A DNA stretch of 64,000 bases from Planctomycetota bacterium (GTDB taxonomy: Bacteria > Planctomycetota > Phycisphaerae > Phycisphaerales > UBA1924), in NCBI GenBank assembly GCA_033763975.1, contig JANRJM010000006.1, forward strand, positions 62,001 through 126,000, read 5' to 3'. A program made the translations under genes and the position numbers. Below, piece by piece: positions 1,730 through 42,758 of the stretch. The notes under the pieces were generated by a model that made no database searches, had not been told where the DNA came from, and saw only the letters and a list, made by a program, of their open reading frames with translations. Position 1 is the first letter of the stretch, and each line of letters opens with the position of its first letter.

Positions 1730-2158
1730 ATGAGCCAGCAGCCCGCTCCCGGCACGTCCCGCTACGACGCCTTTCAGGCGTACCGCACGAAGATGAACGC
1801 CCGCATCACGGGCGACGACGCCGCCCGCGCCGCGGCGGGTGCATCGCGCCCCGACGGCTCGGTCGCGCCCGGCGGCACGCTCGTGACGAAGCGGTTTTTC
1901 TCGCTCGATCACCAGACCTACGCCGCGGGCGCACTCGATGTGAAGACCAAGGAACTGCTCGGCCTCGTCGCCTCCACGGTCCTCCGCTGCGACGACTGCA
2001 TCGCGTACCACGTCGACCAGTGCGTGAAGGTCGGCGTCACCGACGAGGAACTGTGGGAGGCCTTCGACGTCGCGCTCATCGTCGGCGGGTCGATCGTGAT
2101 CCCCCACCTCCGCCGCGGCGTGGAGTTCCTCGACCAGGCACGCCAGCCCAGAACCTAA
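1730..2158 (+). CDS. Carboxymuconolactone decarboxylase (AhpD-like) family protein
   Basis: 142 aa, single CMD domain. The redox motif is visible as C87-D-D-C90 followed by H94 ('LRCDDCIAYHVDQC'), matching the CxxC...H active site of AhpD-type alkylhydroperoxidases. 'DVKTKELLGLVAS' and 'EELWEAFDVALIVGGS' are typical helices of the family. Such proteins reduce peroxides or serve as small disulphide carriers; the actual substrate cannot be read from the sequence. The ATG at 1730 is chosen because the domain begins soon after and a TACCCT box sits 6 nt upstream. It is divergent from the prenyltransferase-like gene, with 63 bp between the starts. Confidence 0.85.
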   Translation: MSQQPAPGTSRYDAFQAYRTKMNARITGDDAARAAAGASRPDGSVAPGGTLVTKRFFSLDHQTYAAGALDVKTKELLGLVASTVLRCDDCIAYHVDQCVKVGVTDEELWEAFDVALIVGGSIVIPHLRRGVEFLDQARQPRT

Positions 2159-10930: not shown

Positions 10931-12601
10931 ATGGCCGACACTGCACCCGGACACGCCGGGCCCGACGCCCGCCAGCCCGCACACGCCCCGCGCGATCCCG
11001 GCCGGATCGTGATCATCGGCGCCGGCCCCACGGGGCTGGGCGCGGGCTACCGCCTGAAGGAGCTCGGGCACGCGAACTTCGAGATCTTCGAGCGTCACCC
11101 GTACGTGGGCGGGCTCGCGCACAGCTTCACCGACGACGCCGGGTTCACGTGGGACATCGGCGGGCACGTCATGTTCAGCCACTACACGTACTACGACCGC
11201 TGCTTCGAGCGCCTCATGGGCGAGGAGTTCACGCTCAACAACCGCGAGTCGTGGGTCCGCATGATGGACCGCTGGGTGCCCTACCCCTTCCAGAACAACG
11301 TGCGCTACCTCCCGCCCCAGGCGTGCTACGAGTGCCTGAGCGGGCTCATCAAGGCGCAGCACGGCAAGGGACGCGTGCCCTCCCCCGCCGCCGCGGCCAA
11401 CTTCGGCGAGTTCATCGACGCCGTTTTCGGCGAGGGCATCGCGAAGTACTTCATGCGCCCGTACAACTTCAAGGTCTGGGCCTACCCGCCCGAGCGCATG
11501 AACAAGCAGTGGATCGGCGAGCGCGTCGCGGTGCTCGACGTCGACCGCGCGCTCCGCAACGCCATCCTCGGCACCGACGACTTCGGCTGGGGCCCCAACA
11601 ACCAGTTCAAGTTCCCCCTGCGGGGCGGCACGGGCGAGTTCTACCGGCGGTTCGGCCCGGAACTGGGCCTCTCGCCCGACGGGCGCGAGACCCCCGCCTC
11701 GCACATCCGCCTGAACCGCGAGGTCGCGTCGATCGACCACGAGCGCCGGGAGGTCACGTTCCGCGACGGCACGCGCACGACGTACGACGCGCTGCTCACG
11801 ACCATGCCGCTCGACGTGCTCGTCGGCTCGGTCCTGCGCGGGGCGATCCCGGACCGGGTGCGCGCCGCCGCCGCGGGGCTGCTGCACTCGTCGGGCTACA
11901 TGGTGGGGATCGGGCTCAAGAGCCGCACGCCCGGGGGCGGCACGCCCAGCACCATGAGCTGGATGTACTTCCCCGAGGACAACTGCCCCTTCTACCGCGT
12001 GACATACCTCTCGAACTACTCGCCCTTCATGACGCCCGACAAGGCGAACTACTACTCGCTGCTGTGCGAAGTCTCGGAGAGCGAGGTCAAGCCCACGCCC
12101 GGCAACGCCGGGAAGAACCCCGACGCGGTGATCGAAGACGTCATCGGCGGGCTGGAGCGCGCCGGGCTGCTGGAGCCGGGCGAGCGCGCGAACATCGTGA
12201 GCCGCTGGTGCTACTACGCCGACTACTCGTACCCCACGCCCAGCGTCGAGCGCGACGCGATCCTGAGCGAGGTCATCCCGTGGCTGGAGTCCCGCGGCAT
12301 CTACTCGCGCGGGCGCTTTGGCATGTGGAAGTACGAGGTCGCCAACACCGACCACTCGCTCATGCAGGGTGTCGAGCTCGCCGACCGCCTGCTCCTGGGC
12401 CAGCCCGAGACGACCATCGGCATGGTCTACCGCGTGACCGACGACGGGCGCAACGCCGCGAGCCACGAACGCCCGGCGCACGCGGGCAGCGGCGAGAAGC
12501 GCCTCGCGCACGTCGAGGTGAAGCCCGCCCCCGCGGGTGATGTCGACGCCGGCGACGTGGGCGAAGACGAAGTGGGCATGACGGGCGGCGCGCGGAAGTA
12601 G
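10931..12601 (+). CDS. FAD-dependent amine-oxidase-type oxidoreductase (UDP-galactopyranose-mutase / protoporphyrinogen-oxidase-like)
   Basis: 556 aa; ATG preceded by GGAGG with 4-nt spacing. After a 24-residue Pro/Ala-rich leader comes the dinucleotide-binding motif 'IVIIGAGPTGLGAGYRL' and 'FEIFERHPYVGGLAHSF', then 'TWDIGGHVMFSHYTYYD', features shared by the NAD(P)-binding Rossmann amine oxidases used in sugar-nucleotide and polysaccharide pathways. 'AYPPERMNKQWIGERV' and the C-terminal 'GVELADRLLLGQPETTIGMV' complete the FAD fold. Substrate is unknown; similar proteins often sit in exopolysaccharide loci. The last 45 residues are a charged tail. No cofactor other than FAD is implied. Confidence 0.8.
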   Translation: MADTAPGHAGPDARQPAHAPRDPGRIVIIGAGPTGLGAGYRLKELGHANFEIFERHPYVGGLAHSFTDDAGFTWDIGGHVMFSHYTYYDRCFERLMGEEFTLNNRESWVRMMDRWVPYPFQNNVRYLPPQACYECLSGLIKAQHGKGRVPSPAAAANFGEFIDAVFGEGIAKYFMRPYNFKVWAYPPERMNKQWIGERVAVLDVDRALRNAILGTDDFGWGPNNQFKFPLRGGTGEFYRRFGPELGLSPDGRETPASHIRLNREVASIDHERREVTFRDGTRTTYDALLTTMPLDVLVGSVLRGAIPDRVRAAAAGLLHSSGYMVGIGLKSRTPGGGTPSTMSWMYFPEDNCPFYRVTYLSNYSPFMTPDKANYYSLLCEVSESEVKPTPGNAGKNPDAVIEDVIGGLERAGLLEPGERANIVSRWCYYADYSYPTPSVERDAILSEVIPWLESRGIYSRGRFGMWKYEVANTDHSLMQGVELADRLLLGQPETTIGMVYRVTDDGRNAASHERPAHAGSGEKRLAHVEVKPAPAGDVDAGDVGEDEVGMTGGARK

Positions 12602-12606
12602 GCAGG

Positions 12607-12840
12607 AGTTCCGGAGCAACGAAGTTCCGGAGTTCCGGAGTTCCGGAGTACAGAAGTTCCGGAGTGGGGAATGGCCGCGAACGGCCGGGTCGCGCCGGAC
12701 CTGTGCGGCTCCCACACTTCCGGACTCCGGAACCTGCGTCATGTCGGAACTTCTGCACGCCGTGACTTCGGAACTCCGTGACTTCGGAACTCCGTGACTC
12801 CGGAACTCCGGAACTTCGGAACTTCGGAACTTCGGAACCC
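12607..12840. repeat. Octanucleotide array in two opposed arms around TTCCGGAA
   Basis: Left arm: copies of AGTTCCGG interleaved with variants (AGCAACGA, AGTACAGA, AGTGGGGA). Right arm: copies of CGGAACTC and CGGAACTT interleaved with CGTGACTT. The right arm is roughly the reverse complement of the left, so the whole block forms a large imperfect inverted repeat with a 50-bp centre. The 27 bp at 12798-12824 recur exactly at 18905-18931 inside the dus gene. Confidence 0.8.
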
Positions 12841-12862
12841 CCGCACTTTCCCGCCAATGACA

Positions 12863-18213: not shown

Positions 18214-19677
18214 ATGTCGCTCGATTGCAACAGCGACCCCTGCGGTTCCAGCGCCAACGCCACCTCTCCCTGCCCCGCCGTCGCCCCCGGCGCCGACGAC
18301 ATCGACGTCCGGCGCATCGCCGAACGCCTGGCGGCGATGGGCGGCGTGGACCCGCGCGTGCGCGCGGTCGTCCCGGGGTTCGACGCGCCGTTCTTCCAGG
18401 CCGGGCTCGCGGGGTACTCCGACGCCGCCATGCGGATCATCGCGCGACGCCACGGGTGCCCGTACTGCGTGACCGAGGCGCTGCTCGATCGCACGCTGCT
18501 CGCGGGCGGGCGCGGGTTCGCCAAGGCCGACCTGGGCGAACTGCACGAGAACGTGCCCGGGGGAAGCGAGGACCACCCGCTCGCGGGGCAGATCATGGGG
18601 AGCGAGCCCGCGGAGATGGCCGCGGCGGCGATCAAGATGATCGAGCAGGCCTCGCGCAGCGAGCGGGCCTACCGCGCGATGGCGTACGCCTCGGACGGGA
18701 CGTTCGCGCCGACCCAGCACCTGCGCCTGCCGGGGGGCGAGCAACTGGGGCGCGTGACGCTGGGCGAAGACAACGACGGGTGGGGCTCGTGCGATCCGGA
18801 AGAGAGTTCCGAAGACACGGATTTCCGAGGTTCCGAAGCGAAGGGGACGTTCCAGGGTGCAGACGTTCCGGAGGTCCGCGGCAGAGAACTCCGGAGCTCC
18901 TCTTCTCCGGAACTCCGGAACTTCGGAACTTCCCCCGCTTCTTTCGCGGCGATTGACGTGAACCTGGCCTGCCCGGTGAAGAAGATCGAGCGCAAGGCGC
19001 GGGGCGGGCACTGGCTGGCCGAGCCCGCGGGGGCGATCCGGATTCTGGAAGCGGTGCGCGAGGCCGTCCCGGCGCACATCGCGTGCACGGTGAAGCTGCG
19101 CCGGTCGTTCGACGACACGCCCGAGATGGCGGCGAACGTGGCGCGGATCATGGACGCGGCGTGCGGCATGGGGTACGCGTGGTCGACGGTGCACGCCCGG
19201 ACGGTGGCGCAGAAATACGTGGGCCCGAGCCGCTGGGACCTGCTCCGCGACCTCATCCGCGAGGTGCGGCGCACGCGCCCCGACGCGATCGTCTTCGGCA
19301 GCGGGGATATCTGGGAGGCGGCGGACATCTTCCGGATGGTCGAGTACACGGGCGTGCAGGCGGCGGCCGTGGCGCGCGGGTGCATCGGCAACCCGTGGAT
19401 CTTCCGCCAGGCGCGCGATCTCATGGAAGGACGCACGCCCCGGGGGCCCACGATCGCCGAGCAGGCGGCGGTGCTGCGCGATCACTTCACGCTGCTCCTC
19501 GCCGTCAACCGCACCGCCCGCCGGGGCGAAGCGCTGTCGTCACGACAGATCCGCAAGTTCGGGATCCGGTTCGCGGCCCACCACCCGCGGGGCGACGAGG
19601 TCCGGCGCGAGATGATCGCGGTGGAGAGCCGCGAGGATTGGGAAGGGGTCGTGCGACGATTCTACGACGAGGCCTGA
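18214..19677 (+). CDS. tRNA-dihydrouridine synthase family protein with large in-frame insertion
   Basis: 487 aa against about 320-350 for usual Dus enzymes. The FMN TIM-barrel starts at 'FFQAGLAGYSDAAMRIIARRHG' (residue ~60), continues to 'GQIMGSEPAEMAAAAIKMIEQA' (to residue 146), then is interrupted for about 97 residues before resuming at 'FAAIDVNLACPVKKI' with catalytic C253. The rest ('CTVKLRR', 'STVHARTVAQKYVG', 'AAAVARGCIGNPWIF') is normal. Roughly the second half of the insertion (residues ~195-243) is translated from an octanucleotide repeat, rich in Ser, Glu, Arg and Pro. In normal Dus this joint between helix and strand is only a few residues. Whether the enzyme is active is unknown, but all conserved motifs remain. 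Confidence 0.85.
   Translation: MSLDCNSDPCGSSANATSPCPAVAPGADDIDVRRIAERLAAMGGVDPRVRAVVPGFDAPFFQAGLAGYSDAAMRIIARRHGCPYCVTEALLDRTLLAGGRGFAKADLGELHENVPGGSEDHPLAGQIMGSEPAEMAAAAIKMIEQASRSERAYRAMAYASDGTFAPTQHLRLPGGEQLGRVTLGEDNDGWGSCDPEESSEDTDFRGSEAKGTFQGADVPEVRGRELRSSSSPELRNFGTSPASFAAIDVNLACPVKKIERKARGGHWLAEPAGAIRILEAVREAVPAHIACTVKLRRSFDDTPEMAANVARIMDAACGMGYAWSTVHARTVAQKYVGPSRWDLLRDLIREVRRTRPDAIVFGSGDIWEAADIFRMVEYTGVQAAAVARGCIGNPWIFRQARDLMEGRTPRGPTIAEQAAVLRDHFTLLLAVNRTARRGEALSSRQIRKFGIRFAAHHPRGDEVRREMIAVESREDWEGVVRRFYDEA
18797..18938 (+). repeat. Octanucleotide array inside the dus reading frame
   Basis: Units of the GTTCCGAA / GGAACTCC / GGAACTTC type in opposed halves, as in the array at 12607. 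Bases 18905-18931 are identical to 12798-12824. The reading frame stays open through the whole block although an 8-nt unit cycles through all three frames. Confidence 0.8.
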
Positions 19678-42305: not shown

Positions 42306-42758
42306 TCAGTCAAACACATAGCGCTCGTCGAACTCGATGCCGTGAACGCGGAGTATGCGCAACAACTCGGATTTGAAATCTTCCCTCTTGTGATGCTCTG
42401 CCTGGCCCGCGATGTACTTCTTCACGGCTTCTTCCTGCGACTTGCTGACGGAGAAGACGCTGTACCCCATTTGCCACGCGAACTCGGCGAGACTCGGATA
42501 CGTCTCGTGAACCCACTTCGACGAGCGGGCCTTGACCGTGCGCATCAGGTCCGAGATCGAGGCATCGGGCCGCCACCGGAGGTACATGTGGACGTGGTCT
42601 TCGACGCCGCCGATGTCGTAGAGCACGCCCTTCTCAGCCCGGACGATGCCGCCGATGTAGGGATAGAGGCGCTCGGCGACTTCGGCGGTAATCCACGGGG
42701 CGCGGCCCTTCGTGGAGAAGACGACGTGGAGCAGGAGTTGGGAGTACGTGCCCGGCAT
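42306..42758 (-). CDS. REP-associated tyrosine transposase (IS200/Y1 family, RAYT)
   Basis: 150 aa, the usual size. The HUH motif is D54-H55-V-H57 in 'GGVEDHVHMYL', and the nucleophilic tyrosine is probably Y115 in 'EEAVKKYIAGQAEHH'. 'LLLHVVFSTKGRAPWI' is the typical N-terminus. AAGGA lies 6 nt before the ATG. RAYTs nick and join single-stranded DNA at REP palindromes and are thought to spread REPs; here the gene lies between two inverted REP-like elements (42165-42243 and 42791-42867). G+C is lower than in neighbours (about 56%), consistent with mobility. All catalytic residues are present, so it may be active. Confidence 0.92.
   Translation of the reverse strand: MPGTYSQLLLHVVFSTKGRAPWITAEVAERLYPYIGGIVRAEKGVLYDIGGVEDHVHMYLRWRPDASISDLMRTVKARSSKWVHETYPSLAEFAWQMGYSVFSVSKSQEEAVKKYIAGQAEHHKREDFKSELLRILRVHGIEFDERYVFD

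Follow-up and report, generated by a model that had tools for sequence, protein, structure and literature searches.

The Dus gene and its repeat array

The window, as we call the whole stretch of 64,000 nucleotides that was analysed, carried a gene for a tRNA-dihydrouridine synthase (Dus) with an uninterrupted open reading frame (Table 1). The gene product matched the profile PF01207 (6.9e-40), with the match split over two stretches, and had 1vhn and the E. coli DusB 6ei9 as sequence relatives in the PDB. The structural model aligned with 1vhn, DusB and DusC at a TMt of 0.75–0.83 (Foldseek), in agreement with a Dus domain and a TIM-barrel fold. The score against the DusB equivalog TIGR00737 was 172.5 bits, below the curated cut-off of 293.3, and the gene was therefore filed as Dus, DusB-like.

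Extra sequence was found between residue 146 and strand E246-250, immediately ahead of C253 in the N-L-A-C-P motif. Here the initial annotation had described an interruption of the Dus fold by about 97 residues, with all later catalytic motifs kept in frame. Both points were confirmed: the additional sequence formed a loop that connects helix alpha3 (KMIEQ) to strand beta4 (IDVNLACP), the reading frame stayed open, and N250, C253 and P254 (N-x-x-C-P) were invariant across all aligned relatives. In an AlphaFold2 model based on a 34-sequence alignment, the barrel was confident and intact and residues 164-240 were disordered (pLDDT 31-44, all <50), which agrees with the disordered loop that had been suggested for structural modelling. 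The loop had also been placed tentatively on the barrel face, and this needs refinement. In TIM barrels, the loops leading from a helix to the next strand sit on the side of the barrel that points away from the active site. From this topology, the alpha3-beta4 loop of Dus is expected away from the catalytic face, and an insert there should leave catalysis unblocked.

Table 1 Features of the Dus locus, of an intergenic array in the window and of RAYT-bearing genes in this clade.
Feature	Position	Strand	Evidence or remark
Dus gene, 487 aa	18214..19677	+	Pfam PF01207, PDB and fold matches
Hypervariable family-specific loop, 101 aa	18649..18951	+	Alignments of 30 and 81 relatives; pLDDT
Older non-repeat loop part (EYRxLAY, HLRLPGGEQLGR and SCDP motifs)	18649..18796	+	Conserved in the genus and in other genera
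Left arm of Dus array, reverse-oriented degenerate units of the GAAGTTCC type	18797..18880 (~18803-18880)	+	Unit scan, pattern <<<<<<
Right arm of Dus array, cleaner GGAACTYC units (PELRNFGTS peptide)	18886..18933	+	TRF period 8; unit scan
27 bp identical to 12798-12824	18905..18931	+	Sequence comparison
NLACPVKK motif with catalytic Cys C253	18961..18984	+	In frame downstream of the array
Intergenic array, left arm	12605..12665	.	Starts 3 nt past the stop codon (TAG) of the gene upstream
Intergenic array, right arm	12746..12841	.	Between convergent genes
RAYT-bearing LeuRS/ValRS loci	G000:C5:413-4177 (L200), L201, L167, L202, L203, L207		
HAM1/RdgB ORF of G066	L168 540-1835	-	RAYT and flanking repeats in frame; HAM1 resumes afterwards

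The repeat unit of the window genome was the octamer CGRAGTTC/GGAACTYC. TRF detected period 8 at 18886-18930 and within 12605-12838. The octanucleotide array of the initial annotation was confirmed, but it was not a plain tandem: the Dus array, which made up the second half of the extra residues, consisted of two inverted arms and was thereby arranged like the intergenic arrays found in the window genome and in G004. The stretch reported as identical to an intergenic array matched exactly over its 27 bp. This identity, together with the genome-wide GGAACTYC family, argues that the Dus array is a dispersed repeat. On sequence grounds, a genomic repeat array is predicted to be translated in frame within an apparently working Dus gene.

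The array RNA was predicted to fold into a single long hairpin of -63.9 kcal/mol (z -2.3; equalled by 5 of 200 shuffles), and the stretches neighbouring the array had z values of +0.5 and +1.1. Taken over the full 101 aa of the linker, the repeat signal was modest (inverted repeat reached by 5 of 100 shuffles, period-8 z 2.0), and the window gene itself fell just under the thresholds of the 81-species repeat count given below.

Two adjacent perfect units (GGAACTYCGGAACTYC) occurred 21 times in G000, 25 times in G004 and 33 times in G001. Such adjacent GGAACTYC units were present in 3 of 61 genomes, all from one genus, and absent from the other 58; a reversed control pattern had 0 matches in G000, G004 and G001. 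The GGAACTYC arrays were stop-free in all six frames, so that they would be accepted more easily in genes, in either orientation. Intergenic arrays often started directly at stop codons, as at 12601 of the window and in L058 and L060. At 2169-2316, the window had a further octamer array (CTGCCACT / CCACTTTT), which was degenerate and probably lay between genes.

The loop in related species

Every family member examined had the loop, and the other families of the order were without it. Among more than 80 relatives the loop length ranged from 29 to 128 aa and differed in nearly every relative. In these other families (f2-f6), the Dus matches stopped near query residue 140 and restarted at 243, with a gap of ~15 nt (e.g., G055). 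The alignment proposed to decide between a fixed, a variable and an absent insertion thus returned a family-wide loop, hypervariable in length and absent from the other families of the order.

HLRLPGGEQLGR and its neighbours in the first loop part were conserved in many genera and not repeat-like, which argues that this part is older, as the initial annotation had considered. The insert as a whole was not derived from the repeat: a non-repeat extension came first and the repeats later. Homologues with the insertion and without repeat character, named beforehand as evidence against a repeat origin, made up ~53 of the 81 relatives. What holds is a stronger statement than the original one, namely that a family-wide permissive loop took up unrelated repeats many times, its second part being where they collected.

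Repeat content and reading frame

Linkers were counted as repeat-bearing if their inverted repeat was matched by ≤1 of 100 codon shuffles, or if period 7 or period 8 had z>3. By these strict tests 28 of the 81 linkers passed (inverted repeat 18, period 8 14, period 7 8), compared with 0 of 81 for same-length control stretches from the same genes. In 917 kb around Dus, 12 of the 30 inverted repeats scoring ≥16 were within the loop, which represents 1.9% of this sequence (enrichment P 1.4e-13). The remaining strong inverted repeats of this sample mostly flanked genes, and none was clearly inside another conserved gene.

More than 20 different repeat units were recognized among the loops, frequently unlike even between sister species. 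They included GGAACTYC (window, L002), GTGACGRA (L110, L123), GAGCGACG (L090), GGAGAGAC (L116), CCGTGCCT (L068) and GGGACCGGC (L083), and the heptamers GGCAATT (L103), GGGAATC (L097), GCCATCA (L128) and GGCATCA (L118). The loops of L092 and L100 had perfect palindrome pairs of 28 bp and 25 bp, respectively. Different repeats were found in the sister pairs L092/L114, L090/L103 and L097/L121. On a maximum likelihood tree of the Dus core, with 29 repeat labels assigned partly by eye, the presence of repeats required a minimum of 14 changes on branches with good support. Read by eye, the octamers of the window, G004, G017, G023, L068, L090, L099 and L116, which belong to different genera, shared a core CGRAG with a variable triplet (TTC, TGA, CGA, AGA, GCA). 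This may hint at distant relatives, at one superfamily or at a common generating mechanism.

All 81 extracted linkers were in frame, as are the palindromic elements of Rickettsia, although 7- or 8-bp units shift the frame unless compensated. In L110 and L123, the next GTGACGAA octamer would create an in-frame TGA; the codon found there was TTA and the ORF was open, which argues for selection on the predicted translated product.

The loop repeat was dispersed in its own genome in about seven species (G000, G004, G017, G023, L092, L100, L103, L079). GTGACGRA had 97 copies in G017 and 29 in G023, and genome-wide copies of the loop repeat numbered 118 for L092, 25 for L100 and 10 for L103. The TGCCTCGA unit reached 58 copies for L079, but had weak genome-wide support in L067 and G019. 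Reversed control patterns gave 0 matches in the genomes with a dispersed loop repeat. When linker 12-mers were compared with their own flanks, they were overall not enriched relative to a control stretch and only L083 and L079 stood out, so that dispersal refers here to the genomes searched whole.

Repeats and RAYTs in other enzymes

RAYT-type transposase domains (Y1_Tnp) were nested in frame within LeuRS in G000, G001 and G065, and within ValRS in G003, G004 and G022, at differing positions. Most nested copies had the HUH motif PDHVH. In G001 and G065, inverted REP copies were present on the flanks of the nested RAYT, inside the ORF. The RAYT-flanking repeats were TCGGCTCTCCGAGCCGA in G001 (LeuRS-resident RAYT), GATCGGCTCTCCGAGCCGAT in G065 and GGGGCGGCGTCCCGCCGCCC in G066. 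The L092-type repeat flanked RAYTs in G065 and G001, and the L100 repeat flanked the RAYT in G066. A stand-alone RAYT gene with flanking L092 repeats was considered and rejected, the RAYT domain being nested in frame within LeuRS; the LeuRS ORF with the nested RAYT had three copies of the L092 repeat.

Octamer arrays were also seen in other genes. A UbiX-like flavin prenyltransferase (L059 2400-3116; G000:C2:225399-226115) had an in-frame GGAACTYC array (SSSDLRNSGTPELPSLRNSGTSELPSGT). This array was found in G000 only and was absent from the 22 relatives examined, and UbiX was rejected as a second recurrent acceptor. The ValRS of G004 (L203 ~1786-1865, minus strand) had an in-frame GGAACTYC/GTGACGAA hairpin array shortly ahead of KMSKS. 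At L062 2814-2929, in the genome that also has the UbiX array, an octamer array formed the C-terminal tail of a nitroreductase (..EVPSGSSEVPK) and lay beside the start of a gene for an ABC transporter. Elsewhere in the window, a Y1_Tnp/RAYT gene (42402-42746, minus strand) had palindromic CACGGGT-type sequence on both flanks, possibly a REP-RAYT unit unrelated to the octamer.

Tentatively, and with more doubt than confidence, Phycisphaerae may have a general arrangement by which hairpin repeats and their RAYTs persist while lodged in frame in essential enzymes (Dus, LeuRS, ValRS, HAM1, UbiX), the alpha3-beta4 loop of Dus being the most-used port. If true, a few acceptor loops would be used much as by unspliced inteins.

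Origin of the loop repeats

Our preferred reading, to which we give a probability of roughly 85%, is that the alpha3-beta4 loop of Dus, permissive and probably disordered, has again and again acquired genome-specific hairpin repeats in frame. In the family ancestor, the loop would first have been lengthened by non-repeat sequence. Later it would repeatedly have accepted, in frame, the hairpin-forming repeat multiplying in each host genome, either as inverted arms of 7-/8-bp tandem units or as REP-type palindrome pairs. The repeats would arrive as genomic copies. For the REP-type ones this would be by RAYT transposition, a RAYT being the likely cognate mover because L100- and L092-type repeats flank RAYTs. 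Template switching followed by slippage would be a likely route for the octamer and heptamer arrays, for which the analysis found no mover. A RAYT was rejected as the mover of GGAACTYC, since the RAYTs looked at in G000 and G004 had no flanking GGAACTYC pairs or other association with this repeat. Selection would retain only arrivals that kept the frame and brought no stop, and the insertions would mostly be neutral for Dus, surviving because the loop tolerates them.

Many loop arrays had both arms and formed strong RNA hairpins (z -7.0 in L103, -8.3 in L092 and -2.3 in the window), and the same Dus loop was struck repeatedly. Both would also be expected if the hairpin were functional, as mRNA structure, translational pause or useful protein segment, with different repeats recruited to restore the function. 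We consider this improbable. About two thirds of the relatives were without a detectable loop repeat and close relatives differed in its presence, the same repeats formed inverted pairs in intergenic DNA, so that pairing belongs to the element itself, and other enzymes (UbiX, ValRS) received repeats too.

Even less probable, and disfavoured, is that the arrays were made in place by local replication slippage, the similarity to intergenic arrays being a coincidence of simple units. The short units, their variable copy number and the degenerate, slippage-worn look of some arms would fit. Such an origin is difficult to reconcile with the 27 bp shared by the Dus and intergenic arrays, with the non-tandem 28-bp and 25-bp perfect inverted repeats in other loops (118 and 25 dispersed copies), and with the loop unit being that genome's dispersed family in the genomes tested. 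An assembly error or contamination that put the repeat into the gene, conceivable because the majority of the genomes are metagenome assemblies, has a very low probability given the identical octamer at the identical site in a separate species (L002/G004), the open frame in 81 of 81 linkers and the recurrence of the pattern in many independent assemblies.

In-frame repeat exaptation is usually regarded as a matter of scattered single events. Under recurrent acquisition, one orthologous loop records at least 12 changes that arose independently among related species, and sisters differ, so that the entry, decay speed and neutrality of selfish DNA in proteins become measurable by comparison. The Dus gene would then be a natural record of selfish DNA tolerated as protein, and its loop a naturally validated insertion site within a TIM-barrel enzyme.

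Comparison with known systems

Literature searches for octanucleotide repeats in Planctomycetes and for LeuRS with a transposase gave no match, and the literature searched contained no case of a single protein loop that had accepted many unrelated repeats in the members of one family. The closest systems share part of the features. Rickettsia palindromic elements (review PMC10969869, citing Ogata et al. 2000, 2002) are short insertions that many housekeeping genes carry in frame and tolerate as extra peptide. They resemble the Dus loop repeats in being in frame within otherwise intact genes. Unlike them, the repeats studied here are unrelated and genome-specific and enter one Dus loop throughout a whole family, and many are tandem 7/8-mer arms with no single conserved element.

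With REPs and REPINs, the repeats share inverted pairs at short spacing, dispersal, a location near stop codons and some intragenic copies. Pairs in +/- orientation, ~30-140 bp apart, were found in G017, G065, G066, G061 and G004. A cognate RAYT accompanied the repeats of G001, G065 and G066, whereas none was found for the window octamer, whose arrays also differ from REPs in not being single palindromes. Intragenic REPs are known from approximately the same recB site in two Xanthomonas species, with different REPs in each (PMC3733652); the recurrence at the Dus loop is far higher.

In the tRNA-Leu intron of Nostoc, one structural site, the P6b stem, has seen independent exchanges of one repeat type for another (PMC4476775). 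Cyanobacterial heptanucleotide repeats (STRR) have short degenerate units, as do the repeats described here; their unit is 7 bp and that of the window 8 bp, and many units in the Dus loops are octamers, although the loops of some relatives use 7-bp units. The STRR/trnL host is an RNA stem-loop or spacer, whereas the Dus host is a coding loop under frame constraint. In-frame repeats in genes were thus already known, and what is new is a single acceptor loop struck repeatedly.
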